Assembly: GCF_963576675.1 (NCBI RefSeq)
Contig: NC_088910.1
Location: 108,280,807-108,344,806 of the forward strand
Direction: 5' to 3'
Origin: Euphorbia lathyris
Taxonomy: Eukaryota > Streptophyta > Magnoliopsida > Malpighiales > Euphorbiaceae
DNA: 64,000 nucleotides
Shown in pieces: positions 26,461-59,319 of this stretch. Numbering within the stretch: position 1 is the first letter of the stretch; each line of letters opens with the position of its first letter. The position numbers and the translations under genes are program-made. The notes under the pieces are model-generated. The model ran no database searches. It saw only the letters and a list, made by a program, of their open reading frames with translations, and was not told the origin of the DNA.

Positions 26461-26942
26461 AAAGATAAAGGGTTAGAAGTTACTCAGCAGACTTATCCAG
26501 GTTCGGCCTCTCCGCCTACGTCCAGTCCCTGGAGATCCTTCCGAACTTTTTGAATCCTCTACTGAGCTCTTTAAAGATAGAGCACAAACCATTTACAATA
26601 GCAACTGAGTATGCAAGAGTACTGATAGCTCCCATTTATATAGTGTTTTTAGGATTAATTTAGATTGTTTTTATTAGCTTCTAGTTAAGTTTTTGTATTA
26701 ATTTGTTAGTTTTTAGTTAAATTTAGTATTTTCCTTATTTATGGCATTTTCGGTGTTTTCAGGGATTTTCAGGGACCTTTCGTGCATTTCTGAACCAGAC
26801 CCAAGCCTATTGGAGCATTTTCGGATCATTCAGGGATCATCAGAGCACTTTTGGGATTCGTCAGGGACCATTAGAGCACTTTTCGGAAGCCCATGGACCT
26901 AAACAGATAAAAGCCGGAGCCACAGTTCCTCAAATATGACTT

Positions 26943-27016
26943 GTCTCGGCGAGACATCACCTGCCTCGTCGAGACAGGCCCTCGTCTCGTCGAGACATGC
27001 CTTGTCTCGACGAGAC
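26943..27016. repeat. Four phased GTCTCG-N-CGAGAC palindromes in U3
   Basis: 13 bp dyads at 26943, 26963 (first arm imperfect, GCCTCG), 26984 and 27004; start-to-start 20, 21, 20 bp. The centre base varies (G, T, T, A) while the arms are kept. They lie about 130-200 bp upstream of the TATA box. Confidence 0.9.
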
Positions 27017-27022
27017 GAGGCG

Positions 27023-27048
27023 GGGGAAGGCGCGCCTGCGCCTTCCCC
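27023..27048. repeat. GC-rich inverted repeat (hairpin)
   Basis: Arms GGGGAAGGCGC and GCGCCTTCCCC, 11 bp each, with a 4-base loop GCCT. Directly follows the phased palindromes in the same LTR. Confidence 0.88.
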
Positions 27049-29035
27049 TTTGCTGAAATTGGCGGATCAGGGCCTTAAAAGCCCATTTAACACTTTGTAA
27101 ATGCCATTTTTACCCCTGAGGCATTAGGGTTTCCTTCCTAACTCTATAAATAGGGAGCTAATCCTAATCTTTCAGGGGGGGATTAGCCACTTAATAAATT
27201 GGAGAGCCGCTAGGGCTTTCTCTCCTCCATAATGTAGATTTATATTTTTTAGATTAGATTTCCAGCTTTCTAGGTTAGATTTATTTTCAGTTTTTATTTC
27301 TTTCAAGAACAATTGATGGGAGAAGTTCCTCATCTTCTATTTCTGTAATTGGAATCGGCAAAACGGGTTTTGGATTTCTATCTCTCCCTCTTATCTTTTC
27401 CTTTAATATTCAATTGAAGCTTTTTTCATTGTTCCTATTTTCCTATTGCTATGATTGGTTTGTCTATGAACTGATCTCCATCCAATTTAGGATGGGGATG
27501 AAATTGATTATAAGAATATGTATGATTAGGGATCTAGGACATTTGATTGATCAGTTTATGCATGCTTAATGCCTAGAAATTGTTAGGAACAGGATTTATG
27601 CTAGAATGAACATTGATAATGATCAACTAGCCTGTTTATGTATATAATGTGCTTAATGCATGTGACCCTGACATTAAATAGGATTATAGATAGATGAGAA
27701 CCTGACCACGGAATCGTCTATACCGAACTTGTGTAAATCTGACTTCGCTAGAGACCACTAGGAATGAGGCTTTGTGGCTGGGCTACGGCTTTAGCCTTAG
27801 TTGTCAATAAACCTAATGCTTTGCATGACCTAGGGTATATGCCTAATCAAGCCGTCACCCGAATGCATGTGAATAGGTTAGACAAATCCCGTACAAATTT
27901 GTCTTTCACTTAGGACAATTACCTTCAATCATTGGTAAAACACAAATCTGAACTCCCTAAACCCATACCTAGGATTTAATCAAAGGAATCCTCAACCTAT
28001 ATTGTGCCATCCGTCAATTCACCTTCTACCCTGTCAATTGTTCACTTTGTTTTGTTATGTTTATTTCCTTTAATTCAATTAGTTAGTTATTAAAAACCCA
28101 AATCTTTATCCAACCCTCTAAACAATTAGATCATTCTAGGTAGATTTACTAGTTATAACGAATAGTCTTTGTGGTTCGATCTCGTGCTTAGCACAATATT
28201 ACTTGTTGCGATAGGATACACTTGTCCTATTAAATGCTATATATTTTACGAGCATCAAGTACCTTCCTCTATTCCTCTACTCAATCATATCTCTACAACT
28301 GAGTAATATAACCGAGTACTCAGCCTCTCTCTACCACTGAGTACTATAACCGAGTACTCAGCCTCTCTTTTCTAACCTTTTACAAATGATAAGAAATTGT
28401 TCTTGATACAACAAAGAACACTTTAGATGAATAAATCAATCTAGACTTTTACACAAAAATAGGAGTTGGTGTAAGAGCTTGCTTTTTCTTTTCAGACAGC
28501 TTCTATTTTGGATTTTCCAAATGAATTGACTTAATGAAGATTTTGCTTGTCTGTCTTGTAATGATTCAAGTATGAAGTGGCCTTTTTATAGTGATGTTTG
28601 AGGCATCAATTATTTGCATCCTGACATATCCGTTATGGGGAAACGTTCTTCTTTCGTCATCACTTGGTTAGCACTCAGTGCTGCAGGCCAATCTTGTCTT
28701 CTGTCTTCGTCAGACGATCATTGATGCTGACCTGACGACCATTTATCTTGACACAGCGGCTTCGCCTTCAAGCTTTTTAGAACAATACATTTTATTTCTC
28801 AAAGTTGAGTTGCATTTTACTCAGCTCCGGCTGTGTGACTTGCATCTGCTGACTTTGTCTTGACTTATACATTTTTAGTTCATATTCTTATGAATCAACT
28901 TACTCAATATTGAACAAACACATTAGTACAATTAAATCAAAGCAATTAAATTTAATTGTAATGGAGTATTTTTATCATGGAGATTAACTTAAATAATTTT
29001 GTCAAATCAAAATCATGTGAAAAGGTGTTTCAACA

Positions 29036-30110
29036 CCTACGTGGATGGCCAATGTGGTCCTGGTAAAAATGTGTGTGGACTTCACTAACCTTAATAAGGC
29101 ATTCCCCAAAGACTGTTTCCCACTACCCAACATCAATTAGTTGGTCGATCAAACGACAAGACACTAGGTGTTATCTATCATTGATTGCATAACATGATAT
29201 CACCAGATTCCTATGAACCCGAATGACAAAGAGAAAATAGCCTTCACTGCCCACGTGGGCACCTTCTGCTACAAGGTGATGCCCTTTGGTCTCAAAAACT
29301 TTGGAGCCACATACCAGCACTTAGTTAATAAATTTTTTGTAGACTAGATAGGAAAGACTATGTAAGTGTACATAGATAACATGGTAGTGATGAGTGCTCG
29401 AGCAAAGGACCACCCATCCGATATTAAAAAAGCAATATCATCTTCTACAAGTATTAGATGAGGCTGAATCTATAAAATTAAGTTTTTGGAATGAAGTCGA
29501 TAAAATTCATGGGATTTGTGAACGGAATAGAGCCTACCCTAGATAAGGTTTATATTATGCTGGAAATGGAGCCGTAAAGGGCACTACATAAGGTATAAAG
29601 ACTAAACGGGAAGCTCACTACACTAGGAAGATTTCTATCATACTCAGCTAGAAATGCCTACCTTTTTTATAAGCTCCTAAAGAAAGATCACCCGTTTAAA
29701 TGGGATGATAAATTCCAAGCTTTCGAGGGAATCAAAATGATTTTGCTTGACCCATAGTTACTTAACGCTCCATATGAGGGGGATGTCCTTGAATTGTATC
29801 ACACGGTTGTCGAGGAAGCAATAGCCACGGTCCTGCTAAAAGTAGAGGAGGGAGAAATCTTTCCCATATACTACCTTATATCAAGGTTCTAAGAGGGGAA
29901 GAACTATGGTGTTTTATGGTAGAGAAGGTGTTGATCGTGGTAGTGCATGTGATAGCATGCCCCTAGCCCTACTTCCAGGTCCATACAATGATTGTACGCA
30001 CAAATCTCCCTCGAAAAAAGGTTATCCAGAAGTCGGAAGTCTCTAGATGAGTAACTGAAATGGTTAGTGAGAATATCATAGTTCAACATCTTATTCAAGT
30101 CAAGGAAAGG
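29036..30110 (+). pseudogene. Gypsy (Tat-type) RT and RNase H remnant
   Basis: Plus-strand text recognisable through many stops: VDFTNLNKAFPKDCFPLP, PMNPNDKEKIAFTAHVGTFC, KVMPFGLKNFGATYQ, VYIDNMVVMS (catalytic YVDD now YIDN), then a decayed RNase H region (FYKLLKKDHPFKWDDKF, PYFQVHTMIVRTNLP). The sequence starts exactly where the Sirevirus-like LTR ends, so the RT was cut by that insertion and its upstream part lies elsewhere. Confidence 0.75.
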
Positions 30111-30149
30111 GATGAAGGCATAGATTTTATGTGGAGCAAGGTTTGATAT

Positions 30150-30355
30150 TGATGATGATCGCACGAAACACTTGATATTGATATCCATTTTATTCGTGAT
30201 TATGTGGAGCAAGGTTTCTTAACTACCCCTCATGCAAATTCAGAAGATCAACTAGCATACCTCTTCACTAAACCATGGATTGGTTCAAAACTTGCAGAAT
30301 TATCAGTCAAGCTTGGAATTGTTTCATCACCAATTCCAGCTTGAGGAGGGACGGT
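30150..30355 (+). pseudogene. Copia RNase H C-terminal remnant
   Basis: Plus-strand frame reading DIDIHFIRDYVEQGFLTTPHANSED then QLAYLFTKPWIGSKLAELSVKLGI, ending PIPA with a stop and TTGAGGAGGG. This is the pol terminus plus a polypurine-like tract of a different Copia element. Only a scrap remains. Confidence 0.7.
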
Positions 30356-31748
30356 AAGCTTAACAGCTATTAAAAGTTATTGTAAGGTACTGTTATAGTC
30401 TATTAAAAGAGAAATTTTAAAATAATAGTCAAGATAAAACGATGACATGTTCTCAAACGATAAAAAAAATTCAGTAATATTAATGACTTGAAAGAAAAAA
30501 AATATCATCCAACATCAACAATATTATAAAAAAAAAATATTGTTTTTTTACGTTCTAAACCAGATTGCCAATTTTTTTTACAAAAATCAGTCTTCAAAAT
30601 TCCACAGCACAAATTTATTTTATTTGTTTTTTTATTACTTTTCTCTAATATTTATGGAAATGAATTTTTTAAACAAAACATTGATTTTCTTTATTTTGAA
30701 CATGGAGTGCTTTATAATGTGTACTGTTAAAGCTAGCGTGATGATTATTTAGAGTTTAGTCCATTAATTGAAAGGTAAATAAATTTGAACAAATATTAAA
30801 ACTTTAGAACTAAATTTCATGAAATTCAACATTAAGAATTTAAACTAAAAAAAAAAAAAAAGGCAAGCGCCAAAACTATTATTTTGGTATTTATTCCTGA
30901 AGCGTAATTCAATAATATAACCTCTGATTGAACAGCAGCCCAATTATTTAAGCCCAGTTTATTTTAAAAGTGATGATGAAATTTCAACCTCCACATTAAT
31001 AATAATAATAAAAAAGCCTAATTGAAAGTAGATACAATTAATAGTAGCTTTTCTTTTAAGTACGGCCATATACGTGTTCTAATTCAGATAAACCAAACAT
31101 CTTACTAATAATTTTGGCCCAATTTTCACACTTGGCAAACCTGAATTAGTTACATATAATCATTAATACTATAATTCAAACTTAACATTATTGGAAGATT
31201 GAATTTTTCCTTAATATCAATCTACAGCTTTCCACATTCACATTTCTTTTCACTCCTTCATCATTATAACTCTTTTACATTATTCATCCGGGCCGGATTT
31301 TTCGTTTCCCTCAGAAATCGAATCAGAAATCTCAAAAAAGTTCCTCACATGATGAATTTTTTTTATTTACGAAGTTAGAATAAAAACATACATGGGAATA
31401 CCTTTTCCACCGCGTGATAATCTTATCATAGACTCTATAAAGATTCTCAAAATTAGTAACAAAATTATATAGGTATATATCTAGTTGAAGGCCCCGTGAT
31501 GCATGGATATGATATTTTCGACATGTTTAAAACATATTTATAAAATTCAAATCTTATATTCAATAAAATTTAAAAAATTCATTGTTGATGTAACATGCAA
31601 AAGGGCAAGCACAATAAAAGATAACACTTATAATTTATTACACGGTGAAACCCATATTTTTAACAATCAAAATTGAGAACAAAAATATAACTAAAGAAAT
31701 CAAAAGTTGAGAAAAAGAAATATCTAAAAACGTAAAAGATAGAAATGA

Positions 31749-31786
<38 letters not shown>

Positions 31787-32689
31787 GTTTCATTGATTTC
31801 TTTACATTTTATCACACCTAGATCTGATATCTACTTCTATATTCAAACTTGCGCACAATTTCATATATAGTTGTTTTGTAAAAAATATATTATAAATAAA
31901 AACCAATTTTTTTTTTTTTAAAAAAAAAAGTTGATACAGAAACGAAACATATCATATTTCTCATCTTTAACTGTGTCACTAATTATTCTACTAATTAAAT
32001 AAAATAAGATAATGAATTAAATAAGACTCGTCATTGAATTGGAAATTAAGGTCGACATTTACACTAAAAATTTGGCTTAATTTGTCAATTTGGTGTTGAT
32101 GGTTAGTGACAATGACGGGACAGAGCTAATAGTTTTCCTTTTCCTTTCAATTCAAGCATTCTCACAATAAAATCTAGTTTCTCTAACATCCTCTCTCATT
32201 GCTCTTCTTCCTCCGTGATATTCTTCCTCCTTTCTTTGAACAATTATACAATCTTTCATTTATATTTTACCTATCTCTTTCACATCAAATCTTCAACTAT
32301 ATAAAGCTGATTTAGAAAATGTTATCAAGAAGAAACTGACCTAAGAAGTCAAGAACTTCAATGTCATCTCTTTACATAAAAAACGAAAATAATTAGCCAA
32401 GTTGCTCAAAATTGAAGCAAGATTATCAAGAACATACCAATTATTTGTAAACATAATATATATCATCAATCAAGAAAACTTATCACAAATTCATCATAAT
32501 ATATAAAGTTAATAAAATGGATCAGAAGATTGAGATAGAAAGAACATGATTTTTTTCTTAAATTGATACTTTAGGTTTGAACTCTAAATATGAGATAGAG
32601 AGTTTATTATGTGGAAAACTGAAGAAGTTTTATGAGAGAGAATATAAAGATTTTTTTAGACTTACACGCAAAATTCCTTGAGGGTGCAT
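30356..32689. other. AT-rich intergenic region
   Basis: No gene recognised in about 2.3 kb. Contains an A16 run near 30847, an (ATA)n microsatellite at about 31747-31784 and T/A homopolymers near 31910. No structured repeat or protein trace found on either strand. Confidence 0.5.
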
Positions 32690-33230
32690 AGTTGAGTTGT
32701 CTCCCATTATTTGTTAATATGGCATGAGGCACCCCATATCGAGTTATATAATATTGTATTGCACAAATGTTATAGCTCTATTTTCTGTAATAGATGCCAT
32801 TATTTCTGCCTACACACACTTTGTGAAGTGGTCGATGGCTACTATTATAAACGTCTTTTATGAGAGGTTCACACGAACGGGCCTAAGATACCAATCCCTT
32901 ATAGGGAAAAGGGCTAGGGAGAGTCGATCCCCTTCATATCTATGAGGGTAAATTGTATATGTTAACATGGAGCTGGCAATTGGACAACGGTGCACTAATT
33001 TTGCAACATCCTTGTCCATAGATTGCCAATACAATCCCTCTACTCGTGCCTTCTGTGTTGTCATTTTTTCTCACTGGTGTGATCCATAAAGTCCCTCATG
33101 TATTTCTTCTAAACATTCTAATCCTTTGTCTCTAGAGATGCACTTGGCCCACTTGTGGCTTAACGACTTCTTATACATAGTCCCCCCGCACCACATATAG
33201 TTAAGACCTTCGAACTATTTCCACCTCCTC
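32690..33230 (-). pseudogene. Gypsy integrase remnant
   Basis: Minus-strand traces of the integrase zinc-binding and core regions: CISRDKGLECLEEIHEGLYGSHQ, then GLYWQSMDKDVAKLVHRC, and after stops AEIMASITENRAITFVQ followed by a degraded GIP...DNG region. The typical HHCC residues are partly lost. Likely a Tat-type element of similar age to the 29036 remnant, but in the opposite orientation. Confidence 0.65.
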
Positions 33231-33261
33231 GTTTTTATTCTCGAGGAGCTATGACCTTCAA

Positions 33262-33710
33262 ACTATAGCCGAACTTTGGGGCATTTTTTCTGGTTTAAAA
33301 ATGGCCAGATTTGGGTATTAATAATCTGATTATTGAGTTTGACAGTATGGAAGTAGTGAACTTCATTTTACACAAGTGTCCCTTACATCATCCCTCAAGA
33401 TCCTTAACTCGACAGATGCAAATGTTGATGTTCGGTTTTAGAGATGCTCGTGTTCTGCGAAAAGATAATCAAAGTGCAGATTTTTTGACAAAGAAAACTT
33501 ATGATTTTCCAGTTAACATCACATGTCTTTTTGTGTTCTGCTGATATACAAAAAATGTTGTCAATGGACTTGAGGGGTTATACCTTACCCAATCATGTTG
33601 CTGCTCAAGGCAGCCTTTTTGTTTGAGTTTTTCCTCTTTCATTTTGTTTCGGGTTTTTTTTTTTTTTTTGCTGCGGTGTGTTTTTTAGTTCAATTGTTCA
33701 CACAAAAAAA
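33262..33710 (+). mobile_element. 5'-truncated LINE fragment (RNase H end) with A-tail
   Basis: Begins in an RNase H (AELWGIFSGLKMAR, then NNLIIEFDSMEVVNF, RVLRKDNQSADFLTKK) and ends with a T-rich 3' UTR and an A8 tail. Flanked by ATGACCTTCAA (33251-33261) and ATGACTTTCAA (33711-33721), an 11 bp duplication with one mismatch. About 450 bp, a classic dead-on-arrival LINE insertion. Confidence 0.8.
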
Positions 33711-33721
33711 ATGACTTTCAA

Positions 33722-34751
33722 TTTTAATCAACACTAATATATGGGAATAAATTCAATTATTGATATTATTTTAACAACTCATCAAAAATATTTTTAAAAC
33801 TTTTCTTCATCATTTGTCAATGAATAACTTTTCAATTTTGATCCAATACAAATACATGGAAAATAAATTCAATTTACTATAAATTATAAATAATAAATAT
33901 ATATAAATGACTATTCAATTTTTCTTTATTGTTAATACTTTTAAAACTCTTCTCGATCATTTCTCTCTACTTTTGTTATACATTAACAACTCATCAAAAA
34001 TACTTTTAAAACTCTTCTCTATCATTTCTCCCATACTTTTGTTATTATATATATATATACCCTAAAACTACTTTAAAATGCATAAAACTGCTTAAATTAT
34101 TGATAAAATTATTATTCAATTCAAAATATGATATAACAATTAAATAATTAATCAAATAACCATCAAATCCACTTGTTTAAATAGAAATGAAACTAGTCTT
34201 ACTTTTAAAACATTATAATTAGATCTTTATTATTTCATATGTTTTTTTAGATATAATAATAATAATAAGAGTTTGATTGCATGAAGTCTTGTAAATTAGA
34301 AAACCAAAGAAGTTGAGGTGCAGTATGCAATACTGTGATCAATTTTTGGATGTTAAATTCATGGTACATATTTCTTTTTCTCTCTTTTTTTTTTCCTCCC
34401 TTATTTCTTACAAAGAAATAAAAACAAAAGGCAGAATATGACTTTTACAGTTGAAGGAACAAACCAACATTACACAAACAACAACAACAATACGAATGCT
34501 AATAGAAACTTATAAAACTATCTTATCCTCTTATCCTATTATCCCTCTTCTATATTCTCAATAATATGTTCAATCAAATCTCTTCTCTCGAATATTTGCA
34601 CCCTTCATATTATCATCCATTTACCACTTATCCTGTAATACCAAATAGTCGTGTCAGTTCCGTTATCACCTCGTGATCAAGGGTCTTATGTGTTTAAATA
34701 AAAGATCAAGAGCTCAATCTGCCAAAGTCAGAAGTGGTTACCTAAGTCAAG
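33722..34751. other. AT-rich intergenic, downstream of the ORP gene
   Basis: No gene. Around 33775-34035 a ~45 bp phrase (CAACTCATCAAAAATA, then TTTTAAAACTCTTCTC, ATCATTTCTC) recurs two to three times with changes. Short AT and AAT microsatellites at 34046 and 34255. The 3' untranslated region of the minus-strand ORP gene probably lies in the right part of this stretch; I could not place its poly(A) site. Confidence 0.45.
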
Positions 34752-37700
34752 TCAAGATGCTTCAGAGGATTCTGCTAAATCTTCATTAAATTCACCGAAA
34801 ATATCTGGACAACCGCCCCAATTTTGCTGCTCCCGTGCTTCCCAATAACCTCCTGTGTAGCGGAACGGTCCGTTTTCACCCTCCCTCTCAAACCACTTGG
34901 GCTTCCATCCATGTTCTTGCAATTTTCTTGACTGCACAAGATGCACAAGTGTAAGATCAAGATGATTACTGATAATAGATATGACAAGAGAAGATATTCT
35001 AATCCATTTTTTTACCATTCTCTGCCGCTTCTCCAACCGCTGTTTCTCTCCATTTGCCTTCTCATATTCCCCATTCTCCAGATGTCGCTGGTCCGGTCTC
35101 AGCCTGGAATCCGTAGGTGGAAGTTTCTCCTTAATCCGTGATCAAATACCCGGGATCAGACATGGCTATAAGAAACGATTAGACATGCATAAGAGAAAAA
35201 TGAAATGCACATTGCAAAATTGATATATTACATCATCTCTACCTGAAGTCCTGGTGTTAATTCATTTAGAGTGATAGCAAATGATGTTAAGTTGTACCGA
35301 GTCAGATTAGGAATCGGCTTAGTACTTTTCCATAGCAAGGTAGCATCATTGCAATCTTTTGTCTTGCTGCTCCCATCGCCTTTAGAATAATACATGCTGT
35401 CATCCCACTTCCCAAATACCGTAGCAACTTTTTTCCCCGAAATGTCTTCAACAAATCCGTTAACCTTTATAAAATTAATAACAATGATTAACATTTGTTT
35501 AATAACTTAATTGCAGCAAAGCTTTTATCAAGCCAATAAAGTGAGATTTAGCTAGATTAAAATACTAACCTGGTGAGGATTTCTGTCAAGAATAGACTGT
35601 TCTTTAAACCTAAGTTTGCATGAATACTGTCGATTTCCGTTTATATTCATCATTCCATGGTGATCACAATACACTTTACCAAGAATAAGATTGTAAATTG
35701 TTGTTGTCACCTGATGGATCACAAAACCGATGTTAATAGAAAACACATCCTAAGAAAAACAATACAGAAGATCAAAAGAATTAAGCGATCACATTCTGCA
35801 TCAGCAGTAGTATATACCTTGCTCCATTGGAATACTTCACCATCATCAAATTCCAAGGTTAGAACTCCAACAGGGTCAAGCTGAATTGACCGGCCCCAAA
35901 ATTTTGTGCGAAGATTGCTGTCACCCCAAAACTTCCACCCTTTGCCTTCACTATGGCAGGCAATAAGAGTTGGGTGATGACTAACCTGTACAAACAACAT
36001 AGAATGATTGAAATGCATATTCTGCTAGAAGAAAATAAATTATGACAAATATTTTCAATTCCAACTCTATTCCATGCCACATCTTAAGTACAAAGAGAAA
36101 TTCCAATCTTTAGGTAATATCTACGTTTTATTCTGCAAAACCTGGGATAAATCTTTCAGATTCTTTTGCGAACAAATTATTTTCCTAAAGGCTGAAAGCA
36201 TGAACACTATATTATTCTCCCCTCGACAAAGGCCACTCTTTTCCCTATCAGAATCACCCAGGTCCACTCTTTTCCTTATCAGAAACACCCAGATCCACTC
36301 TTTTCCTTATCAGAATCACCCAGAGAATCAAAACCCAAGTTAACTCGACATTTTTACATTTCACTTAGTTACGGTTCCGTCTCTGCAAAAGAATCTTCCA
36401 TCATGATTTTTGGCATTGGAAAACTAAATTTTACTTCCATCAATTGAAAAAAATATGGCTTGTTTGGGCTAATATCAAAATCCAGGAAACTAAAAAGTAG
36501 TATTGGGACAGAAATAAAAGACATGGAACTTTTATCGAGGCATTTTGCAAAATTGCACCTCTTAGCATGAGTTTTAGATCTCTCATTTCTTTAGGAATTT
36601 GAATGGATGAAGGTTTTGGTGAAGTCTATTACTTCAGTCATTATCTGTCTAAACAAAACAAGAACTTTCATCCAAATTCCTAGATTCCAGTAATTCCTGC
36701 ATTTAGAATTCTCCAAAACAAAGTTTGGCCTTCGTTTATTGTAACGAAATAAGAAATAATCTAGCATCATAGTTATTAAAGGCGCAAGGGGGGTCCTAGA
36801 GCCTTGGCGCAAGGCGCAACTTAAGGCGCGCGCCCAAGCGACTCGAGGCGCACCAAAAAAAATCATAAATTCATAATACTAGTCACAAATAGTCAAATAC
36901 CAACAATAAAACCATAAAATGCATGAGTTAAGTTCTAGTTAACTACTCAGGCATAATGTCTGCTGCTATATGTGTAGTAAAAACTTTCGATCTTTGTCTG
37001 TCTCTGTTTTTCTTTTATTTTCTGAACTTAAAAACCCCTAAAATACCCTAACCCTAAAACACCCTCAAAACCCTAAAATACCCTCAACCCTAAAATACCC
37101 TAAATTACCCTAAAGTAGCCAAGGCGCTAAGGCTGGAGCCTTAGCCGAGGCGTGCCTTTAATAACTATGTCTAGCATAATCACCAAAAATAAATATCAAT
37201 TTAAAATTTCAAATAACTGCTGCATGATTATATCATGAATCTTGTATGACTACTGACCTTCTCAGAGAAGAAGCGAACTCCCTTATCAGGAAAATCAGCT
37301 TCATATGTTTCTCCTAGCAAAGGATTGAAGGGTTTACAATGCCGGCCTTCAGATGAAGCATATCCAGATACAGCAAATGCAGCAACATTTAAGATCCTCA
37401 GAAGACTATTTCCCTTTACAAAACCAGAAAATAAACTATCAGAAATATATGACACTCTGAAAGCTTAATATAGAGGACTATGCGCACAAAAATAACAACA
37501 AATATAACAGGGTTGAAAACACAAGCAACAAATACACTAGTGACATTAATTCTGTAACAAAACAAATGCAAACATGTCACGTGTATCATGACCACATTTT
37601 TCAAACCTAAAAGTTTATAGAGAAACATTACTTCTTTCCCATGCTGATAGGCTCGGTCCAAAAGATAAGAATACTCCAAATCCTCAAAGCACTTCTGAAG

Positions 37701-40700: not shown

Positions 40701-42013
40701 AAAGAAAAGTTCAACTATGTAACCAAAAAGAAAAGTCAACAGAATTTCTAGATTTTAAGTAGAGGAACTACCCTGCTAATTGATAGACTCGCTGTTCATC
40801 ATTTATCTACGCTACCCACAAAGAAAACACAAAAATACATAAAGAATTAAAAGAGAGCAGAAATACACAAAGTTGAAGTAAGAAATGATACCCACAAGAA
40901 ATTGACCAATCAATAAAATTTAGATCAGATAGGAAGGAAAAAAGAGAGAAAAACAAAATGAAGGATGATCTTGAAAGAAGCTCAAGTCCATCGATTTGAT
41001 AAAAATGGTGGTGACCACTGATGAGTACACAGACCTAAAACGTACCGTATCATAGCTAACCTACACATATACACACAAATACACAAACCCACCTGTTGAT
41101 GTGACCTACTCTAGTTAAAACTGTAAAAAAGAAAAGAAGATAAGGAGGAGAGAACAAAGATGAAATTGAAATCATCAAAAACAAGAAGAAAAAAGGGGAT
41201 AAAATTGAAAACTCATTTGGCTTTTGGGCGCTTACAGAAGAACAGAACACAGTAGTCTCTGAGCATTGCGAGGGACCTATGCTTCATAATCCACATAAAT
41301 TTTCTCTTTCTAAAAGCTCAGATATCAATGGCACTTTATTGTTTTCCACAGACATTATCAGAACTCTGAATTCAGATATATATACAATTTTGACCAAATT
41401 GGTAAAAAACGCAAGGTTAATTTTTTGAATCAAATTTTTGCCTGAATTAGCAAAACTTTTCACCAATACCGCCAAAAAGAAAAAAACAACATTTCCATAC
41501 ATACCCAGATCCCACTTCCCTTGCTCCGATCATTCGATTTTCCTTCGAATTTCAATTTTTATCTTTCATTTTGATTTTAGCTATTTCGTTTACCTTTAAC
41601 TGAACAATGCCAACACTTTTCGGCGGTTTCCGGCGAAAACTGCCGCTGTCCATCCTCGATAGCCGATTAGTTGTGATTTCTCCGATCAATCTGACGTCAT
41701 CACTGGACGATAATAGATTAAGATTCTCCGACCGGCGAATCTTAGAGTAAGAGAGCACACCGTTTTTAAGTAAGAACCAACGTGATCTCCATCCCTTGCC
41801 GTAATTCGTCCACTTGTGGAGCACACCAGCTACAGTAGCCTCCGGTCCAGCTATGATCCGCCCTACATTGCCATCAGATCCACCGGAAAACCCGGCCGGT
41901 AAGGATCTAGCCCTAGTTAAAGACGCCTCCGGAGACTGGTCTCCGATTCCAGGACTCTCCAAGGAGATGCAACAGAGAGGGTGCATTTCCTTGACCCTCA
42001 TTTTCATTACCAT
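34752..42013 (-). CDS. Oxysterol-binding-protein-related protein, ORP2A-like (10 exons)
   Basis: Lipid-transfer protein of the plant ORP1/ORP2A group, expected to move sterols or phosphoinositides at ER contact sites. Exons on the minus strand: 42013-41594, 40185-39826, 38521-38425, 38074-37632, 37413-37258, 35985-35818, 35710-35570, 35464-35243, 35129-35016, 34931-34752. All have GT-AG borders and phases agree, giving about 766 residues (757 if the ATG at 41986, MHPLCC, is used). Domains: PH ([32 protein letters not shown]; continued [19 protein letters not shown]), a coiled linker, an acidic stretch with an FF-motif-like core ([14 protein letters not shown], possible VAP binding), then the OSBP-related domain: [11 protein letters not shown], the signature [55 protein letters not shown] and the terminal PKWF...YTGGYWEAR. 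Length and order match the family, with no break. Subgroup 2A is my best guess, from memory of the MHPLCC opening. Confidence 0.92.
36233..36325. repeat. 31 bp x 3 minisatellite in ORP intron 5
   Basis: Units begin at 36233, 36264 and 36295, each opening CCACTCTTTTCC(C/T)TATCAG, with two or three substitutions among them. Confidence 0.92.
36768..37169. mobile_element. hAT-like MITE in ORP intron 5
   Basis: 402 bp with terminal inverted repeats CATAGTTATTAAAGGC, flanked by the 8 bp duplication TCTAGCAT (36760-36767 and 37170-37177). The 8 bp size fits the hAT superfamily. Both ends are GC-rich (repeated AGGCGC words). The interior carries a CCCTAAAATACCCTAA-type array. Non-coding. Confidence 0.88.
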
Positions 42014-42323
42014 TAAGAAAAGACAAAATCTCTCAGCGGAATATTACTTCACATCAAAGAATCATCAACGCCTGCAAATCCAACCAAATCCGAAAAAAGA
42101 AATTCAAAAATAGGAAAGCAAAAATGTACCCCAAAACAAACATTGATTCACATAAAACCCAATATTTAAAAGAAAAAGGGGCTGTGTACCTAAATAGACA
42201 AACTGAGTACAGAAACTGAGAGATTCTGTTGAAAGAGAAAGAAGAGGGAGATTGGTAAAAAGAAGAGAGCTTTTTTCCCTTCTTATTCAACAAAACACAA
42301 AACGAATAATAAAAAAAAAAGCC

Positions 42324-42331
42324 TATATATA
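42324..42331 (-). promoter_or_regulatory. TATA box of the ORP gene
   Basis: The minus strand reads CTATATATAGG. It lies about 310 bp upstream of the proposed ATG, which would put transcription start near 42295 with a leader of about 280 bases. The leader is CT-rich on the coding strand. Confidence 0.6.
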
Positions 42332-42607
42332 GTATTAGAGTATCAGTACATGCTGTGTGTGTAAATATATATATATATAGATATAATATGCGAGAGAGTG
42401 TGAGTGCAGCAATGGTGGATGATGGAAGGAGGAAGAAGAGAAGGTGGGGTAGAATGGTAAATAGAGAAAAGGTGGGGTTGAATCTGAGAATGAATTGATG
42501 GATAGAGAGAGGAGAAGAAGAAGAAAGTGAATTACAGGTGAGAAATCGTGAAAATGGAAAGTAATTTATGGTAAAATATTAAATATGGTGCGGTAAAAGC
42601 AAAAGAC
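42332..42607 (-). promoter_or_regulatory. Upstream region of the ORP gene
   Basis: Non-coding. Contains an AT microsatellite at 42364-42388 and a purine-rich stretch (AAGGAGGAAGAAGAGAAGG and similar, 42425-42535), i.e. pyrimidine-rich on the gene strand, common in plant core promoters. No specific transcription-factor site is claimed. Confidence 0.45.
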
Positions 42608-42846
42608 ACGTATTTATGATGGGATTTATTGCATGATCACCACGTTTTATCTCTTCGAACAATTTTTTCATTTTTTATTCTTTTCTTTCCTTAACGCCAA
42701 TGCTTTCCTATATTTATTTACTATCCGTTGAAAGGTCCGTTTGTTTTACCTACTGTTTACTGTTATTGTTTGTTGTTATGGTTTATTGTTTACTGTTACG
42801 GTTTATTATTGCTATTTGATGTTGAAGTTACGGTTTATTTTTTGAT

Positions 42847-43199
42847 TGCTCTGTTAGTGGGGTGTCTGGATTGAGATTAGTGGTAAGTGTGATGTACCAA
42901 ATAATCTACCATAGAGAAGACTTATAAGTTGGTTGTCAAGGAAAGCTGCTGGAAAATCTCTTAAATCTTCTATCAGAAGAGTTGTTTTTGCAGCAATTGT
43001 GTATTGGGTGTGGTTGACTAGGAATAGAATTGCTTTTGATAATTGTCTTTTTTGTAAGGATCAAATTGTTAGGCAAATGTCTTTAAATGTAAAAATGAGA
43101 TTATGTAAATCTCAATCTTCCAACTTGCTGTGGAACAATTGGACCTAGATGTATGAGTTGTCCTTTGGTCATTGTATAAGTTTTTTTGCGCTTAATAAG
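42847..43199 (+). mobile_element. 353 bp LINE-derived insertion
   Basis: Absent from the right-hand repeat copy. Flanked by ATTTTTTGAT (42837-42846 and 43200-43209). Carries about 70 codons of zf-RVT-type LINE sequence (RRVVFAAIVYWVWLTRNRIAF ... DQIVRQMSLNVKMRL). No A-tail is visible. It dates after the duplication that made the two direct repeats. Confidence 0.75.
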
Positions 43200-43599
43200 A
43201 TTTTTTGATATTTCCATGGAAAAAAACTGTTTTTCCAAAAAGCATAGATTCTCTGCTTTTGTAAAAGTCTGCTTTTCGGGTATAAAATGCAAACAGGATA
43301 TCACTAACCAAACACCTAATATTGTTTTTCAGATGTAAAAGGAAAATAGGAGGTCACTAACCAAACACCTAAAAATCTCCCCTTTGAAGTGAAAAGGCAA
43401 AAATGAGTATGAAAATGAGCAACCAAATACCCATAATTCTTCGTTTCTAATATATTTCTTTTTACTTCAAAAAGTAATTTTTGAATAGAAATATAAAAGC
43501 TTTAAAAATAATTTCATCTACTTAATAACTATTTTAAGCAATTTATGAGTAGTTGGCGTTTTAATGAATCTTTTTCAAAATTATAAATCATTTATTATT

Positions 43600-43860
43600 T
43601 TTCGTTTTCATATTGCTGGAAACTTTTCGGTTAGGTGGATCAAACTCAAGGGTTTGGATGGTGTGGATATAGGTTCAGATGTATTATCAGTGGTGGAGCA
43701 TATTCATCGAGAATACTTTCGTTCTTCTTATGGTTCAATTGTAGACGATTATAAAAGTCTTATTTCTAATATTAATGATATTTCTATCAGATTTATAGAT
43801 CGTTCTGCAAATAGGATGATTCATGTTTTAGGTTTTCTCATTCTTTGTCAGAACTTGTAG
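43600..43860 (+). pseudogene. LINE-type RNase H remnant (left repeat copy)
   Basis: Reads WIKLKGLDGVDIGSDVLSVV, then YGSIVDDYKSLISNINDISIRFIDRSANRMIHVL. This is the C-terminal half of an RVT_3 RNase H (SDCL..V and RSANR.AH.L patterns), with the catalytic Asp context partly lost. The same remnant recurs at 48300-48540. Confidence 0.65.
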
Positions 43861-44172
43861 AATAAGATACTATCACTTTATATGTTATTTTACATTTCTT
43901 ATATGATGATTCTATTCAAGTTCTTTTTCTTAAAAAAAATATTCTTTCAAAAAAAATATCTACCATCACCAAACATCTATGATATATTAATCAAAGTCAT
44001 GTAATACAGACATAACATATGAATCGATATATCATCGTTTTAAAACGCACTAAATAAACTTTATTTCATTAATTTTAATTAATCTCTCAATCATATAATA
44101 TATAGGATCCAGTTTCAATTTAATAATATTACTTTAAAAAAAACTGAAGGAAAGATCAAACTTGTATTAAAA

Positions 44173-44898
44173 TCAACTAAGAGCTAAACACATGAATTCC
44201 TGAACCGAACTTGGGCAGTATCCCGTAAAAACAAAAGGGGACTGAGAATGCTTGGCCCATTTAGCTAAATTATGTGCAATGTTATTTCCGCTCCGGTAGA
44301 TAAAATGAAAAGAGCAGCTAATGAAGGATTGTGATAGATTGATCACATCCGTATAGAGATAGTGTAAATGCGACAGAGGTGGGTCTCCCTGGTTAATCGC
44401 GTCAATTATTCCTTTCGCATCTGATTCAATCCATATGTGGGTAAGTTGGAATCGTCGTGCCAGTAATAGACTTTCCCAGATGCCGTGTAGTTCTTCTTCG
44501 TCAACAAAGGAGCAAATTTTAATGGGAATTCCAGCAGAGAAGATTCTTGTGCCTACTTTGTCTCCCGCGATCACTCCGACTCTTGCGGATAGGCTGTTGC
44601 CCTCCCATGCGTCATCATAGTTTATTTTTGTAACACCAGCGGGAGGGGGACACCACACCTTGTAAGAGTCAAGAAGTGAATTACCAATAGGAAGATTAGG
44701 CGTTGTTGCTCGAGCTTTAATCCAATCTGCATAAAAATCATTTACCTTTGGGAGGATTGTATCAGGTTCCAGAATTCGTCCTTCATAGACAAGTAAATTT
44801 CTTTTGTACCAAAGCCACCATAACAGTATCAAGCCAGATGCTCTTTCGTTCTTGGTCGAAGCAGATAAACACTCCGAAAGCAAATTCTGACAATCCAC
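44173..44898 (-). pseudogene. LINE-C RNase H and end of zf-RVT
   Basis: About 241 residues: the zf-RVT end (GLILLWWLWYKRNLLVYEG), then KVWCPPPAGVTKINYDDAWEG, EEELHGIWESLLLA, IWIESDAKGIIDAIN and FIYRSGNNIAHNLAKWA. The final region normally holds Asp in N.(V/A)AD..A; here it is AHNLA, as in many plant LINE RNase H domains. Stop at 44173. Better kept than the LINE-A equivalent. Confidence 0.8.
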
Positions 44899-44940
44899 CT
44901 CCTGAACTCGATTCCATCGAGCTATCGCTGGTGATTTATT

Positions 44941-45618
44941 TCACACCGCCATTACCGCGGGGCATTTCATAAAGACGTGATGTGCATCCTCTCTGAAGAA
45001 GCCACACGCACGGCATCGCATATCCACTGGCCATCCCCGAAGGCTGAGATTCCGGAAAGTTGGCAGTATGTCCTTTGCTAATTTCCAACCGAAGTGAAGA
45101 ACTTTAGGCGGAGCGTCTATATTCAAGAGTTGTCGCCATAGCATCGACTAGGAGGAGGACGGTGAGGGGATAGCCTGCACTTCGTGACATCATCGTTCTG
45201 CCAGGTAATAACATGATCTGACTGAAAAACGTCCATGCTTTCCTGGTCCCCAATAAAAGACTTCTGTGGCACCTGAAACAGAAAGCAAAGTGTTAATTAA
45301 CGAGTTATTCCATTCAGTACCTTCCGGATTCATCAATTCCCTAACAAGCCTAGGTGGGGTAGTAGTCAAACAAGACAGGGGTCTTCGGGCATTTAAGGTC
45401 GGGACCCAGTGGTCCTCCCAGATCTGAATATGTTCGCCGTCCCCCACTCTCCACATCAAACCGTCCCTTCGTGCGGACATAAAACTCTTCCACACATAGC
45501 TTGAGTTTTGGGTCGGTTCTGCTTCAATAACACTTGTATGGGGAAAGTATTTGCCCTTCAGGACTCCAAAACATAGTGAACCGGAGTGACGAGCCAGCCT
45601 CCATAGTTGCTTAGACAA
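44941..45618 (-). pseudogene. LINE-C zf-RVT linker
   Basis: Two frame-broken pieces. 45190-45618: LWRLARHSGSLCFGVLKGKYFP, MWRVGDGEHIQIWEDHWVP, GRFSVRSCYYLAER. 44941-45144: MLWRQLLNIDAPPKVLHFGWKL and the metal-binding CRACGFFREDAHHVFMKCP. Same family as 964-1707. Confidence 0.78.
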
Positions 45619-46979
45619 AAGTGCTGAATTAAAAGAACAGAGCCATCGGAAACCAATACCACCCTCATGCTTAGCTTGACACAGGGCCTCCTAAGCAAGC
45701 CAATACACCGGGCATTTTGTATCGGATCCGCCCCACCAAAACCGACTGATAAGCTGCTGGGTATCATGACAGAGCCCATCTGGTAACATAAAACAGGACA
45801 TCACATAAATGGGAATGGATTGAATAACAGCCTTAATTAGTACCTTTTTACCACCTGCGGAGAGATGTCTTTCTTTCCAACCTCGGAGCTTTCGATGTAT
45901 TCGTTCTTTGATTGTAGAGAACACAACTTTTTTATTTCTCCCAATGATTGTTGGGAGCCCCAGGTATCGAGGGAGAGCACCTGTAATACTGACATTTAAA
46001 AAAGTAGAAATTAAGGCCTTCCTAGTGTCCGACACCCTAGCGCTGAAAAAAATCTCGGACTTGTCAAAATTAATAACTTATCCTGAATTGCTCTCATATT
46101 CATGGAGGATGGTGCGTAGATAAGTAACTTTAGTCAGAGTGGCACGACCAAAAATAAGAGAGTCGTCAGTGAAAAATAAGTGTGATATTCCCGAACTCTC
46201 TCTTGCCACTTTCAGGCTATGCAGCTTCCCTATGGACTCAGCTTGTCTGATGTTGGCTGATAAGACTTCTACACACATCAGAAATAAGTATGGAGATATG
46301 GGATCTCCCTGTCTCAAGCTCTTAGTCGGTTTAAGCCATCCCTCAGGGTGTCCATTAATCATGAAGGACATTGATACAGACGAGATGCATAACATTACAA
46401 GATTAAAAAAGGAGGGTGGAAATTGAATACGTAACATAGATTTTTCCAAAAAAGGCCATTCAATTCTGTCGTAAGCCTTACTCATATCCAATTTTAGAGC
46501 AAAATTACCTCGATTCCCTTTAATTCTAGTTTTCATACTATGAAATGCCTCGAAAGCGAGTATAGCATTATCAGTAATGAGCCTTCCAGGGACAAAAGTC
46601 GATTGTCTGTCGTGAATCAAACTAGGTAATACTACTTTCAATTTGTTCGAGGGACTTTCAAGATAATTTTATAGATTACATTACATAAGGCTATGGGTCT
46701 TAAATCTTTCATTACAGAGGGATTTTTTACTTTAGGAATCAGTGTAATAAGAGTATGATTCAGACCATTAGGTAAAGAGCAAGAATTCAAACAATCAAGC
46801 ACTAGATGAGTGACATCAGGACCAATAAAATACCAGCATGACTGATAGAATAGAGGAGACATACCATCATGCCCTGGGGCCTTGTTTGGGTGCATTTGGT
46901 GAATCACACGCTTGACCTCCTCACTTCTAAAAGGAGCCGATATATCCAATTGTTGTTGAGGAGACAAACTCGAGTCCAC
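45619..46979 (-). pseudogene. LINE-C reverse transcriptase
   Basis: Pieces at 46638-46979 (HPNKAPGHDGMSPLFYQSCW, LITLIPKVKNPSVMKDL, RPIALCNVIYKI), 46078-46641 ([53 protein letters not shown]) and 45691-46035 (YLGLPTIIGRN, FWWGGSD). The catalytic box reads FTDD rather than FADD; both aspartates are present. GPDG has become GHDG. Frameshifts separate the pieces. Confidence 0.82.
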
Positions 46980-47028
46980 TGCTTCTATGAAGGAAGTATT
47001 AATCTGCGGGTTTTCTGATCTAAACAGC

Positions 47029-47696
47029 TCAGAAAAGTAATCTGTAATTATGGTGCCAATAGTCAGGGGACCCTCTCGCCAGCTTCCCCCCGAATCCCGT
47101 AAGCGCTGAATCTGATTTGTTCGTCTTCTGGCCGAGCACTTTGCATGAAAGTAGCCTGTGTTTCGATCTCCACCGAATTAGCCAATCGAACTTTGCCCGT
47201 TGTTTCCATTTCAGCTCCTCACACCTTTCTAATTCTGCAATTCTTGCCGATATCTCCCTTTCACGCTCAATACTCATGTCAGAAGCGGACCTCTGTATCC
47301 TCTCAAGTTCCCGCGACAAACGCTAAATCTGCCCACGCGGATTATTAAAAGATTTTTTTCTCCAGACCGTTAATCAGTGCGCAACTGCTTCAATTTTACT
47401 GACTACCATATTCCCAGAAGTCGGACTTACCCAGCACTGTTCAATGAGTGGTTTACATTCGTTGCTGCGCGGCCACATGGATTCGAATCAGAAGATTCGG
47501 CGTTGGTTGTACCGGTCGCTGCTGGGCGAGCAGTTTATGAGAAGCGGGTTATGGTCCGATGCAATTTGTGCGAGGGTGCTAACACGAACCGTGGGAAATA
47601 AATTAATCCACTCAGCAGTTGCAACAGCTCGATCGAGGCATTCCCCAATTGTCGCTGAGCCCGAGCGCTTATTACACCAAGTAAAACTGTCACCAG
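47029..47696 (-). pseudogene. LINE-C endonuclease C-terminal part and linker
   Basis: From the right border the minus strand reads GDSFTWCNKRSGSATIGECLDRAVATAEW, then ASDHNPLLI (SDH motif), then after a stop the linker with RCEELKWKQRAKFDWL. The N-terminal catalytic motifs were never copied because of 5' truncation. Confidence 0.7.
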
Positions 47697-48790
47697 ACGT
47701 ATCGATGATGGGATTTATTGCATGATCACCACGTTTTATCTCTTCGGAACAATTTTTTCATTTTTTATTCTTTTCTTTCCTTAACACCACTGCTTTCCTA
47801 TATTTATTTACTATCTGTTTAAAGGCCCATTTGTTTTACCTACTGTTTACTATTGCTGTTTGTTGTTACGGTTTGTTGTTTACTGTTACAGTTTACTGTT
47901 GTTTTTTGATGTTGTTGTTACGGTTTGCTGTTTGCTGTTGGAAAAAGCTGCTTTTCCAAAAAGCAGAGATTCTCTGCTTTTGTAAAAGTCTGTTTTTCGG
48001 GTGTAAAAGGCAAATAGGAGGTCACTAACCAAAGACCTAAAACTCTCCCCTTTGAAGTGAAAAGGCAAAAAGAAGTATGAAAATAAGCAACCAAACACGC
48101 CCTAATTCTTCGTTTCTAATACATTTCTTTTTACTTCAAAAAGTAATTTTTGAATATAAATATAAAAGCTTTAAAAATAATTTCATCTGCTTAATAACTA
48201 TTTTAAGCAATTCATGAGCAGTTGGCGTTTTAATGAATCTTTTTCAAAATTATAAACCATTTACTATTTTTCGTTTTCATATTGCTGGAAACTTTTCGGT
48301 TAGGTGGATCAAACTCAAAGGTTTGGGTGGTGTGGATATAGGGTCAAATGTATTATCAGTGGTGGAGCATATTCATTGGAATACTTTCGTTCTTCTTATG
48401 GTTCAATTGTAGACGATTATAAAAGTCTTATTTCTAATATTAATGACATTTCTATCAGATTTACAGGTCGTTCTGCAAATAGAATGATTCATGTTTTAAT
48501 TAGGTTTTCTCATTCTTTGTCAGAACTTGTAGAGTAAGATACTATCACTTCATATTTTATTTTATATTTCTTATATGATGATTCTACTCAAGTTCTTTTT
48601 CTTAAAAAAAATATCTACCATCACCAAACATCTATGACATATTAATCAAAGTCATGTAATACAGACATAACATATGAATCGATATATCATCGTTTTAAAA
48701 CGCATTAAATAAACTTTATTTCATTGATTTTAATTAATCTCTCAACCATATAATATAGGATCCAGTATTAATTTAATAATATTTTTTTAA
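47697..48790 (+). repeat. Right ~1.1 kb direct repeat flanking LINE-C
   Basis: Second copy of 42608-44140 without the 353 bp insertion. Begins immediately at the 5' end of LINE-C. Contains the second RNase H remnant (48300-48540: SSYGSIVDDYKSLISNINDI, RFTGRSANRMIHVL). Confidence 0.85.
48300..48540 (+). pseudogene. LINE-type RNase H remnant (right repeat copy)
   Basis: Sister of 43600-43860 with several substitutions and small indels. The text after HVL continues IRFSHSLSELVE here, where the left copy is frameshifted to LGFLILCQNL. Confidence 0.62.
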
Positions 48791-49274
48791 AATTAAAAAT
48801 GAAATAAAATAATTAAAAGTGTCATCTGCAGCACAAAATGACGGTGGCACCTCACCAAGCGATTATTCCATTAACTTTACCCCCATTGAAAAGATTATTA
48901 GAGGGGATTAATAAGCTTTTTCGTTAAACTCGTGTACTTTTATTTATTTTGCATTATCCAATACTTCTTATATCTTTGTCTATCTTTTTCTTTTTAATTT
49001 CAATTTCATAAACATTGTTATTTATTTTTTCTTTTAGTGCTAACCTATTAAATAGGTTTAACACAAATTAAGGTTTACTTAATAGTTAGAAAAAGTTTTC
49101 ATAACTTTAAATCTTTAAATTAGAGACTTCGAATTCCAATCCTACCACCTATTTAATTAGGAGAAAAGTTAACAAAAACTACAATATTTTTCAACAGTCT
49201 AAAATTATTAATTTAAATAATACGGGTATCCAATCGATTAAATAAGAAGGGATAAGTGGTGGAAGAAGCCGGAT
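48791..49274. other. AT-rich intergenic stretch
   Basis: No gene or repeat recognised. Confidence 0.5.
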
Positions 49275-49884
49275 TGTGAAATTATACCCTACATGTCGTG
49301 TGGATTACTGAAATAAACCTCAAAGGTTCAGTAGTAGTTCCACACGCAATGTGGGAATCTCACACACCGTGTGGACTTTAAAAACATCAGCTATTTTTTT
49401 GATATAAAGTCCGCACGTTGTGTGGCTATTCCCACACGTCGTGTGGACTTTTAAAAAGTCAAACAAGACCAATCTTGGCCCTCACTCTAGGTCTCTTCTA
49501 ATTACAATTTTGTCACTCATTAATTACAACACACGTCACTCCTTATTTACAACTCATGACACCCTTGTACATCTATCCCATTTTACCCTTTAAGTTTCAT
49601 CTATTTTAATTGTATGCATTTAACATTTATGTAATTTCATATTTAGGTTTAGAGATGATATAAATTTATCTCTTTCATTTATAACACTCGACTTTTTATC
49701 AATAAACTTATTATCTTTCTTTTTGAGAAGTATTAGGGTTCATCCCTTTTACCAATGAGGATCTTTCACTCCTATAGGTTTTAGCTTGTAAACCTTGGGA
49801 TTAACTCATTCTAGTTTAGCTAGAGAATAAACTCTTTGTTAGTTTATGATCAAAACTAACTCACTCGTCATTAAATCCGTGTCA
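49275..49884 (+). repeat. Probable LTR of an unclassified LTR retroelement
   Basis: The right edge GTCA (49884) is followed by the iMet-type primer site at 49887. A left edge at TGTGAAATTATACC (49275) is only plausible, giving about 610 bp. GATATAAATTTAT at 49656 could be its TATA element. Contains the phased dyad array at 49289-49446. No second LTR was seen in the window. Confidence 0.5.
49289..49446. repeat. Phased CCACACG-N-CGTGTGG dyad array
   Basis: 15 bp words centred on the same dyad start at 49289, 49340, 49360, 49411 and 49432, spaced 51, 20, 51, 21. That is a ~71-72 bp unit with two dyads 20-21 bp apart. The copy at 49432 is a perfect 7+7 dyad; the others have one to four changes. 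Confidence 0.88.
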
Positions 49885-49886
49885 GT

Positions 49887-49899
49887 TGGGATCAGAGCC
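49887..49899 (+). promoter_or_regulatory. Primer binding site, tRNA-iMet type
   Basis: TGGGATCAGAGCC, one base off the usual TGGTATCAGAGCC. Confidence 0.7.
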
Positions 49900-55392: not shown

Positions 55393-55629
55393 TGATAGGG
55401 GTATTTTACCCCTATATTTTAGCGTGATTTACGGGTTGATTTTGGATAAAATAAATAAGTTTAATTATAAAAATAAAGTGTTTTTGATAAAATAAAGAAA
55501 TAAAAATAAATCTCGTACTTTCAGTTTATTTTCCTCGTTTTTTATTAGTTTAGGAAATAAAAACGTCAAGCTAACTCGGCTCTCAAGATTTGTATTTCAG
55601 GTACAAGAAAGGAGCAAAAATCCACTCCA

Positions 55630-56100: not shown

Positions 56101-56179
56101 ATCATGGGATTTCTGCACCAAATAATGTTGCTCCATACTTGTACTTTGTGAAATTACAAGCTTGCCCTTGCTTGATGTC

Positions 56180-56189
56180 TATAAATAGG
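56180..56189 (+). promoter_or_regulatory. TATA box of the Athila-like 5' LTR
   Basis: TATAAATAGG, about 80 bp after the last dyad. The same box recurs in the 3' LTR at 63730-63739. Confidence 0.75.
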
Positions 56190-57222: not shown

Positions 57223-57240
57223 TGGCGCCGTTGCCGGGGA
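57223..57240 (+). promoter_or_regulatory. Primer binding site, tRNA-Asp type
   Basis: TGGCGCCGTTGCCGGGGA, six bases after the LTR end. This is the primer-site form usual in Athila-group elements. Confidence 0.9.
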
Positions 57241-59288: not shown

Positions 59289-59294
59289 ATCCTC

Positions 59295-59319
59295 GGGGAG
59301 TTGTGAATCACAACTCCCC
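59295..59319. repeat. Perfect 11 bp inverted repeat
   Basis: GGGGAGTTGTG, loop AAT, CACAACTCCCC. It lies directly after dyad block 1. Confidence 0.92.

Follow-up and report, generated by a model that had tools for sequence, protein, structure and literature searches.

We analysed a 64,000-nucleotide window of Euphorbia lathyris DNA (contig NC_088910.1, positions 108,280,807 to 108,344,806), taken as plant DNA carrying nested retrotransposons, in which three families of long terminal repeats (LTRs) contain arrays of short palindromic words (dyads) set 19 to 21 bp from one another. The sample is this single window and these three families, with no further copies of any of them. The arrays lie in a solo LTR, in an LTR at 49 kb, and in both LTRs and the interior of an Athila-like element, and an earlier note on this DNA had proposed that the three LTRs share one geometry built from unrelated words. 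The LTRs, the arrays, and the sequences next to them are as follows (ORF, open reading frame; aa, amino acids).

26623..28257, plus strand: solo LTR with TGATAG...GCATCA ends, sitting in the LTR of a copia element (sequence and target-site duplication)
26943..27016, plus strand: dyad array, four copies of GTCTCGNCGAGAC, centres 26949, 26969, 26990, and 27010 (dyad scan)
27144..27150, plus strand: TATA box of the solo LTR, picked by position, with two more matches further downstream (pattern match)
49289..49446, plus strand: degenerate dyad array, five CCACACGNCGTGTGG-like copies, centres 49296, 49347, 49367, 49418, and 49439 (dyad scan)
49659..49665, plus strand: TATA-like sequence downstream of the 49-kb array, a TATAAAT match only (pattern match)
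49887..49897, plus strand: primer-binding-site-like sequence, taken as the 3' limit of the 49-kb LTR (pattern match)
55393..57216, plus strand: LTR1 of the Athila-like element, TGATAG...GCATCA ends, primer binding site at 57223 (ends and LTR comparison)
55631..56100, plus strand: 12 dyads ACGCnnnGCGT as six pairs (20-21 bp), upstream of the TATA at 56179 (dyad scan)
59105..59288, plus strand: internal array 1, three dyad pairs, each 21 bp, spacers G-rich then C-rich (dyad scan)
59630..59806, plus strand: internal array 2, three dyad pairs (21, 21, and 20 bp), ending 45 bp ahead of the TATA-like sequence at 59852 (dyad scan)
59965..61167, plus strand: extra ORF, 400 aa, ATHILA ORF-1 family (PF03078, 24.1 bits, cut-off 20.2)
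61308..61483, plus strand: internal array 3, three dyad pairs (21, 19, and 21 bp), downstream of the extra ORF (dyad scan)
62964..64000, plus strand: LTR2, cut off by the window end, with 11 dyads and one 21-bp unit of LTR1 missing (LTR comparison)

The solo LTR is bordered on either side by a 5-bp target-site duplication, AGTAC, and splits one member of a repeat pair (the LTRs of the copia element, repeats at 15.6-29 kb) that flanks an ORF matching RVT_2, the copia-type reverse transcriptase. Its dyads are spaced 20, 21, and 20 bp apart, three of them exact copies of GTCTCGNCGAGAC and one with a single mismatch, and here the coordinates, spacings, and position upstream of the TATA box all agree with what the earlier note had described. 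At 49 kb, the spacings of 51, 20, 51, and 21 bp given in that note stood, while its perfect dyads did not: only the last (49439) is perfect over its 15 bp, each of the remaining four matches at just 5 of its 7 arm positions, and the array is mostly degenerate. No dyad was found at 49275, where one had been placed; the array begins at 49289. The primer-binding-site-like sequence at 49887, which we take to be of the initiator-methionine type, supports reading this region as an LTR. Neither a second LTR nor the 5' end was found in the window, and the element is left unclassified.

In the Athila-like element, LTR1 has 12 dyads (10 with exact arms and 2 with one mismatch) and LTR2 has 11, all with exact arms, arranged as five pairs and one single, while the 18 dyads of the interior comprise nine exact, eight with one mismatch, and one with two. 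Up to two mismatches were allowed in the scan; inside the element, 14 hits with two mismatches and one with a single mismatch, at 60205 in the ORF, were discarded. Some internal dyads were admitted for lying 21 bp from a better dyad, and a few weak ones were accepted partly on position. One exact 21-bp unit separates LTR1 from LTR2. TATA or TATA-like sequences stand downstream of arrays at 27144, 49659, 56179, and 59852.

Phased pairs of similar-word dyads occupied 23 overlapping rows in the window, against a mean of 0.41 and a maximum of 2 in 100 shuffles; single dyads barely exceeded chance (1,204 against 1,134 in shuffles, standard deviation 40). All but one of these rows (51652) fell within the three elements, with 7 in the solo LTR, 2 at 49 kb, and 13 in the Athila-like LTRs. 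A strict scan, requiring perfect 5-bp arms and similar words at a distance of 12-130, was applied to 24 stretches, the boundaries of some being our own estimates. It returned pairs in five stretches (6, 1, 9, 2, and 9 pairs), which hold the solo U3, the 49-kb LTR, both Athila-like U3s, and internal arrays 1 and 2; the six similar-word pairs of the solo array compare with 0.00 in 60 shuffles. The remaining 19 stretches had no pairs, and internal array 3 also scored zero. The 24 stretches omit 15301-15589 and 63729-64000, and a strict run over the whole window found nothing outside the arrays. The arrays are real and specific. As a general LTR design they did not hold up, since the strict scan returned no pairs for the other repeats taken as LTRs, namely the copia LTR (15.6-29 kb), the two repeats at 42.6-48.8 kb, and the LTR sequence ahead of the primer site at 51795. 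Their CpG content was as claimed, with observed/expected ratios of 1.28 in the solo array, 0.92 at 49 kb, 1.22 in LTR1, and 1.63, 1.43, and 1.20 in the internal arrays, against 0.62 for the window, the remainder of the Athila-like LTR being high too (1.07).

Between units, words or arms are 78-96% identical, compared with 31-57% for flanks and linkers. Thus, LTR1 has 96% identity in the arms, 44-57% in the inner linkers, and 32-33% in the outer flanks, and in the interior the arms reach 94% in the first dyad of a pair and 81% in the second, with inner linkers at 51% and 33% and outer flanks at 31-34%. Solo dyads are 90% identical against 42% for their linkers, and the 49-kb arms 78% against 31-38%. 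Sequence outside the words has therefore mostly drifted since, if it was duplication that produced the arrays.

A neighbour at 19-21 bp was found for 38 of the 39 dyads considered (solo 4, 49 kb 5, LTR1 12, interior 18), the exception being the first at 49 kb; because pairs are defined by closeness, the finding is the tight range of distances rather than the pairing as such. Tandem periods of 20, 21, 41, and 73 bp were detected. Between pairs, 8 of the 12 steps measure 71-73 bp and the others 93, 105, and 95 (LTR1) and 80 (internal array 1). In the Athila-like element, the word ACGC-GGG-GCGT and its 21-bp pairs were thus found as described, in an array larger than claimed, whereas the unit of ca. 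73 bp applies only in part. The 12 centres of LTR1 share a 10.4-bp phase (R 0.938), with a P of 0.0065 when pairs are taken as units, spacings are sampled uniformly over 62-115 bp, and the best period is chosen within 10.2-10.6. The R values at 10.4 bp were 0.955 for the solo array, 0.814 at 49 kb, 0.986 for internal array 2, and 0.874 for internal array 3. The shared phase of the earlier note did not hold as stated: a 10.4-bp phase is clear in five of six arrays (R 0.81-0.99) and weak in internal array 1 (R 0.533), whose misfit led us to reject one common 10.4-bp phase across all arrays.

Two features of the pairs are new here. In LTR1, the pairs mostly keep the same orientation, with GGG/GGG spacers in four of six, whereas all nine internal pairs have a G-rich first spacer and a C-rich second one (exactly GGG/CCC in two) at unchanged distance, so that an internal pair is not merely a copied 21-bp unit. 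The other is the symmetry of the sequence around the pairs. Outer flanks are complementary in exact register at 71 of 152 positions (8 bases, 19 pairs), against 29-45 at 16 other offsets, and dyad pairs therefore tend to sit at the centre of larger inverted repeats. For these tests, LTR2 pairs were omitted as near copies of those in LTR1, and solo 26969/26990, which lies between two pairs, was dropped. Permutation within families gave P values of 0.0004-0.012 over seven flank lengths from 3 to 10 bases, 0.00025-0.0039 after leaving out the base adjoining the dyad, and 0.0002 to 0.021 for the Athila-like element alone; permuting 15 non-redundant units across families gave 0.0005. These values supersede an earlier unrestricted permutation of the outer flanks of 20 short pairs (0 of 5,000). 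The effect is uneven, with five of six matches in 6 of the 19 pairs and values around chance in the others. Single dyads extended by their own flanks gave 1.87 of 6 matches over 39 dyads, and flanks facing each other across the 13 long gaps gave 2.38 of 6 (P 0.12); both ideas were dropped. The inner linkers showed a weak signal, which we did not use (at 3 bases, 18 pairs gave 26 matches of 54, P 0.011; at 4 bases, 15 pairs gave 25 of 60, P 0.06).

One word per family, with dyad symmetry and geometry in common, was seen in all three families, as the earlier note had it. The solo and Athila-like LTRs have the same TGATAG...GCATCA ends and the same CTATAAATAGG TATA context and align over ca. 60 bases near the 3' end (score 38, against maxima of 27 and 33 in 300 shuffles). 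Their U3s do not align (score 21, shuffle mean 20.6), and it is in these that the unrelated words sit. The proposed change of word under a shared geometry was thus seen in LTRs alignable near the 3' end. As a single comparison, this pair is the best single evidence we have that the geometry may outlive the word.

We read the arrays as promoter-proximal regulatory repeats, that is, multimerised sites for a putative dimeric factor at LTR and internal promoters, and put the probability of this reading at roughly 45%. Each dyad would be the binding site of a dimeric, sequence-specific DNA-binding factor, and sites two helical turns apart, in pairs often about seven turns apart, would place the dimers on one face of the DNA. 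Bound before the TATA box of the LTR, and in the case of the Athila-like element also before the TATA-like sequence at 59852 that precedes the extra ORF, such a factor might activate transcription. Arrays would gain and lose whole units, and in this manner a family could swap its word and keep the geometry. Several observations weigh against this proposal. No trans-acting partner or binding factor was found in this analysis; only three LTR families in one window are involved, and duplication links the units of each array. Internal array 1, with its 80-bp step, is out of phase, and in LTR2, which is outside the 39 dyads counted above, one dyad stands alone. Nor are the LTR dyads fully symmetric: 9 of 12 retain the GGG spacer, so that the word may be recognised in one orientation. 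Complementary outer flanks are not expected from simple repetition of a site. Finally, between LTR1 and LTR2 the dyads have changed at 3 of 121 positions and the rest at 4 of 916, so that the dyads changed faster, which fits CpG mutability after insertion, as expected of CpG-rich DNA. A broader scheme, in which the palindromes of plant Ty3 LTRs would form a code at two levels (dyads with a private word, paired at two turns inside a larger inverted repeat and recognised by a fast-coevolving dimeric reader, with related families swapping the word and keeping the geometry), seems quite unlikely to us.

The symmetry around the pairs may instead reflect selection for a hairpin or cruciform, each dyad pair then forming the centre of an extended inverted repeat whose loop has 5-10 bases, either in RNA (as a source of small RNAs or in translation or packaging) or in single-stranded DNA. 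The in-register flanks with their low permutation P values speak for this, as do predicted RNA folds, which are strong in the solo array (z -10.2), in both halves of the 49-kb array (-5.4 and -6.5), and in most of the nine internal pairs (-1.7 to -6.4), and palindromes of Sirevirus elements are described as small-RNA hot spots (PMC5311732, PMC10760457). However, four of the six LTR1 pairs set GGG opposite GGG, which cannot pair, and three of the six fold near chance (z -0.2, -0.7, and -1.0; the others -2.6, -3.0, and -6.2). G.U combinations in the outer flanks are rarer than after permutation (8 against 14.1 at 8 bases), and the signal becomes weaker if they are allowed as pairs (P 0.020) but not if A.C is (P 0.003); sense-RNA pairing therefore explains the flanks poorly. 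The dyads themselves hold nearly the same number of G.U as of A.C combinations (11 and 10). The self-pairing repeats in LTR RNA suggested before gain partial support from inverted repeats larger than those noticed earlier, but the depletion of G.U is unlike what selection on sense RNA would leave. Helical phase and position before the TATA box are also left unexplained. Selection on such a fold appears unlikely.

An origin without selected function would derive the spacing from tandem duplication and the symmetry from template switching or quasipalindrome correction during reverse transcription. The unit-sized difference between LTR1 and LTR2 and the tandem periods fit this origin, and the C-rich second spacers, together with flank complementarity that is Watson-Crick and not wobble, are the expected trace of copying at the DNA level. 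Copying alone, however, does not give words at 96% identity beside flanks at 32%, nor does it explain why only 5 of 24 stretches have arrays, four being LTR stretches upstream of TATA or TATA-like sequences, and we consider a purely neutral history rather unlikely. A different role for the words would be anti-silencing of the kind known from VANC proteins, in which the extra-ORF protein would recognise the element's private word, both in the LTR and at the promoter of the ORF itself, and lift silencing. This ORF stays open in an element where none of six ORFs of at least 150 aa matches pol, dyad arrays lie on both its sides, and the targets of VANC proteins are tandem repeats in noncoding DNA that diverge rapidly (PMC5735166, PMC10398659). 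Against it, the predicted fold of the protein is unusable (mean pLDDT 42.6, above 70 only in a C-terminal helix), the heptad periodicity of that helix is non-significant (P 0.57), a protein search with the ORF gave none of 3,264 candidates at E 0.001 or better, and its Pfam matches name no DNA-binding domain. The extra ORF as a dimeric DNA binder is thus unsupported (unusable fold, no heptad signal, no relatives found), and anti-silencing through it is highly improbable.

The reading as multimerised promoter-proximal sites has a close precedent, and the 'undescribed system' of the earlier note is too strong a term. Repeated motifs of Sirevirus (Ty1/copia) elements are palindromic, family-specific, and located upstream of the TATA box and of env; the words measure 10-20 bp (Table 3 of that paper), all but one with a CGG-CCG core, and they are called Sirevirus-specific, being absent from the classic copia elements compared (PMC2829016). 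The same source states that dyad symmetry often marks cis-acting activators of retrotransposons, and according to PMC10760457 the regulatory regions of transposable element families in different organisms are often arrays of repeats, sometimes palindromic. Like the Sirevirus motifs, the dyads found here are family-specific palindromes upstream of TATA (at 49 kb, a TATAAAT match only), are of similar word length, and have extra copies before an additional ORF (internal arrays 1 and 2 before 59965, with array 3 after it). Sirevirus clusters define CpG islands; the clusters here are CpG-rich relative to the window, as is the rest of the Athila-like LTR. They differ in their hosts, which are an Athila-like element (PF03078), a related solo LTR, and an unclassified 49-kb LTR, and in lacking the CGG-CCG core (ACGCnnnGCGT, GTCTCGnCGAGAC, and CCACACGnCGTGTGG). 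The Sirevirus motifs were defined by at least eight copies, a number compared with 12 in LTR1 and 4 and 5 in the solo and 49-kb LTRs. No repeat spacing is given in the available text of PMC2829016, while here the paired 20-21 bp geometry and the complementary outer flanks were measured.

Maize Sirevirus palindromes are likewise clustered in the LTR regulatory region, variable in sequence, and strong in predicted structure (PMC5311732, PMC10760457); the elements with these small-RNA hot spots are copia, and maize Ty3 elements are described as generally without an obvious peak of such structure (PMC10760457). The Arabidopsis VANDAL/VANC systems also have short words as tandem repeats in noncoding DNA that differ between families (PMC5735166, PMC10398659), but they are DNA transposons, the VANC21 word is non-palindromic and in one orientation, and the trans factor is known. 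Retand elements are Ty3 and have family-specific internal repeats beside an extra ORF that may bind DNA; their ORFs are mainly antisense, and in the text of PMC11963269 available to us 'dyad' is absent and 'palindrom' appears only in a reference title. The available parts of PMC10794571 and PMC3601003 add nothing on dyads. This kind of system is already known; to it the present arrays add, within the reach of our searches of open-licence literature, an Athila-type host, the geometry of the pairs, and the symmetry of their outer flanks.

The arrays would thus extend the Sirevirus-type design to Athila-type elements. If general, that design would be a recurrent solution in plant LTR promoters, beyond one copia lineage, and related LTRs that keep the geometry but change the word would suggest that a DNA-binding factor, or silencing, is the object of an arms race. 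Similar CpG dyad words may occur in LTRs of other plants, which we do not count as evidence, and the words presumably resemble sites of plant factors.

The rest of the Athila-like element and the palindromes next to the arrays comprise the following features.

27023..27048, no strand: separate palindrome with 11-bp arms, directly 3' of the solo array (palindrome search)
57664..58884, plus strand: gag region in two open stretches, 57664-58116 (Pfam gag) and 58117-58884 (without Pfam match) (ORFs and Pfam)
59295..59319, no strand: 25-bp palindrome after internal array 1 (palindrome search)

We read the element as pol-less and non-autonomous, none of the six stop-to-stop ORFs of at least 150 aa in 57217-62963 matching reverse transcriptase or pol in Pfam (23 ORFs of 60-149 aa were left unscanned). 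Examined for membership of the ATHILA lineage, it has the ORF-1 domain (PF03078), and a Ty3-type reverse transcriptase was not found among these six ORFs; the extra ORF also matches PF20167 at 26.4 bits, under that family's cut-off of 45. The type of the primer binding site at 57223 is our assumption. The element is inserted at 55392-55393, within the RNase H part of a Ty3 element (gag and reverse transcriptase, 51.8-55.4 kb) that we presume to be of Tat character. Scanning viral contigs for relatives with the gag and reverse transcriptase queries gave 15 and 9 pattern matches, none of them confirmed.

Three arrays run straight into larger palindromes of the form GGG(G)A...TCCCC with differing inner sequence (27023-27048, 59295-59319, and ca. 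59811-59839, the third found by eye). The interior of the Athila-like element holds two similar modules in succession, 59105-59400 and 59630-59890, which look like the two copies of a duplicated internal promoter; each combines three dyad pairs with a palindrome, a TATA-like sequence (at 59363 and 59852), and a leader rich in pyrimidines. The LTR dyad unit at 55979 and the internal unit at 61386, after the ORF, have common outer flanks (12 of 16), so that units seem to have been exchanged between LTR and interior. In the copia LTR, 38-bp tandem repeats with CTGAGT/ACTCAG inverted words lie at 16132-16222 and 28290-28368, where the strict scan scored no dyads. Three 21-bp tandem repeats with imperfect dyads were also seen at 51610-51672, in the LTR region ahead of the primer site at 51795 and downstream of a TATA match at 51465.

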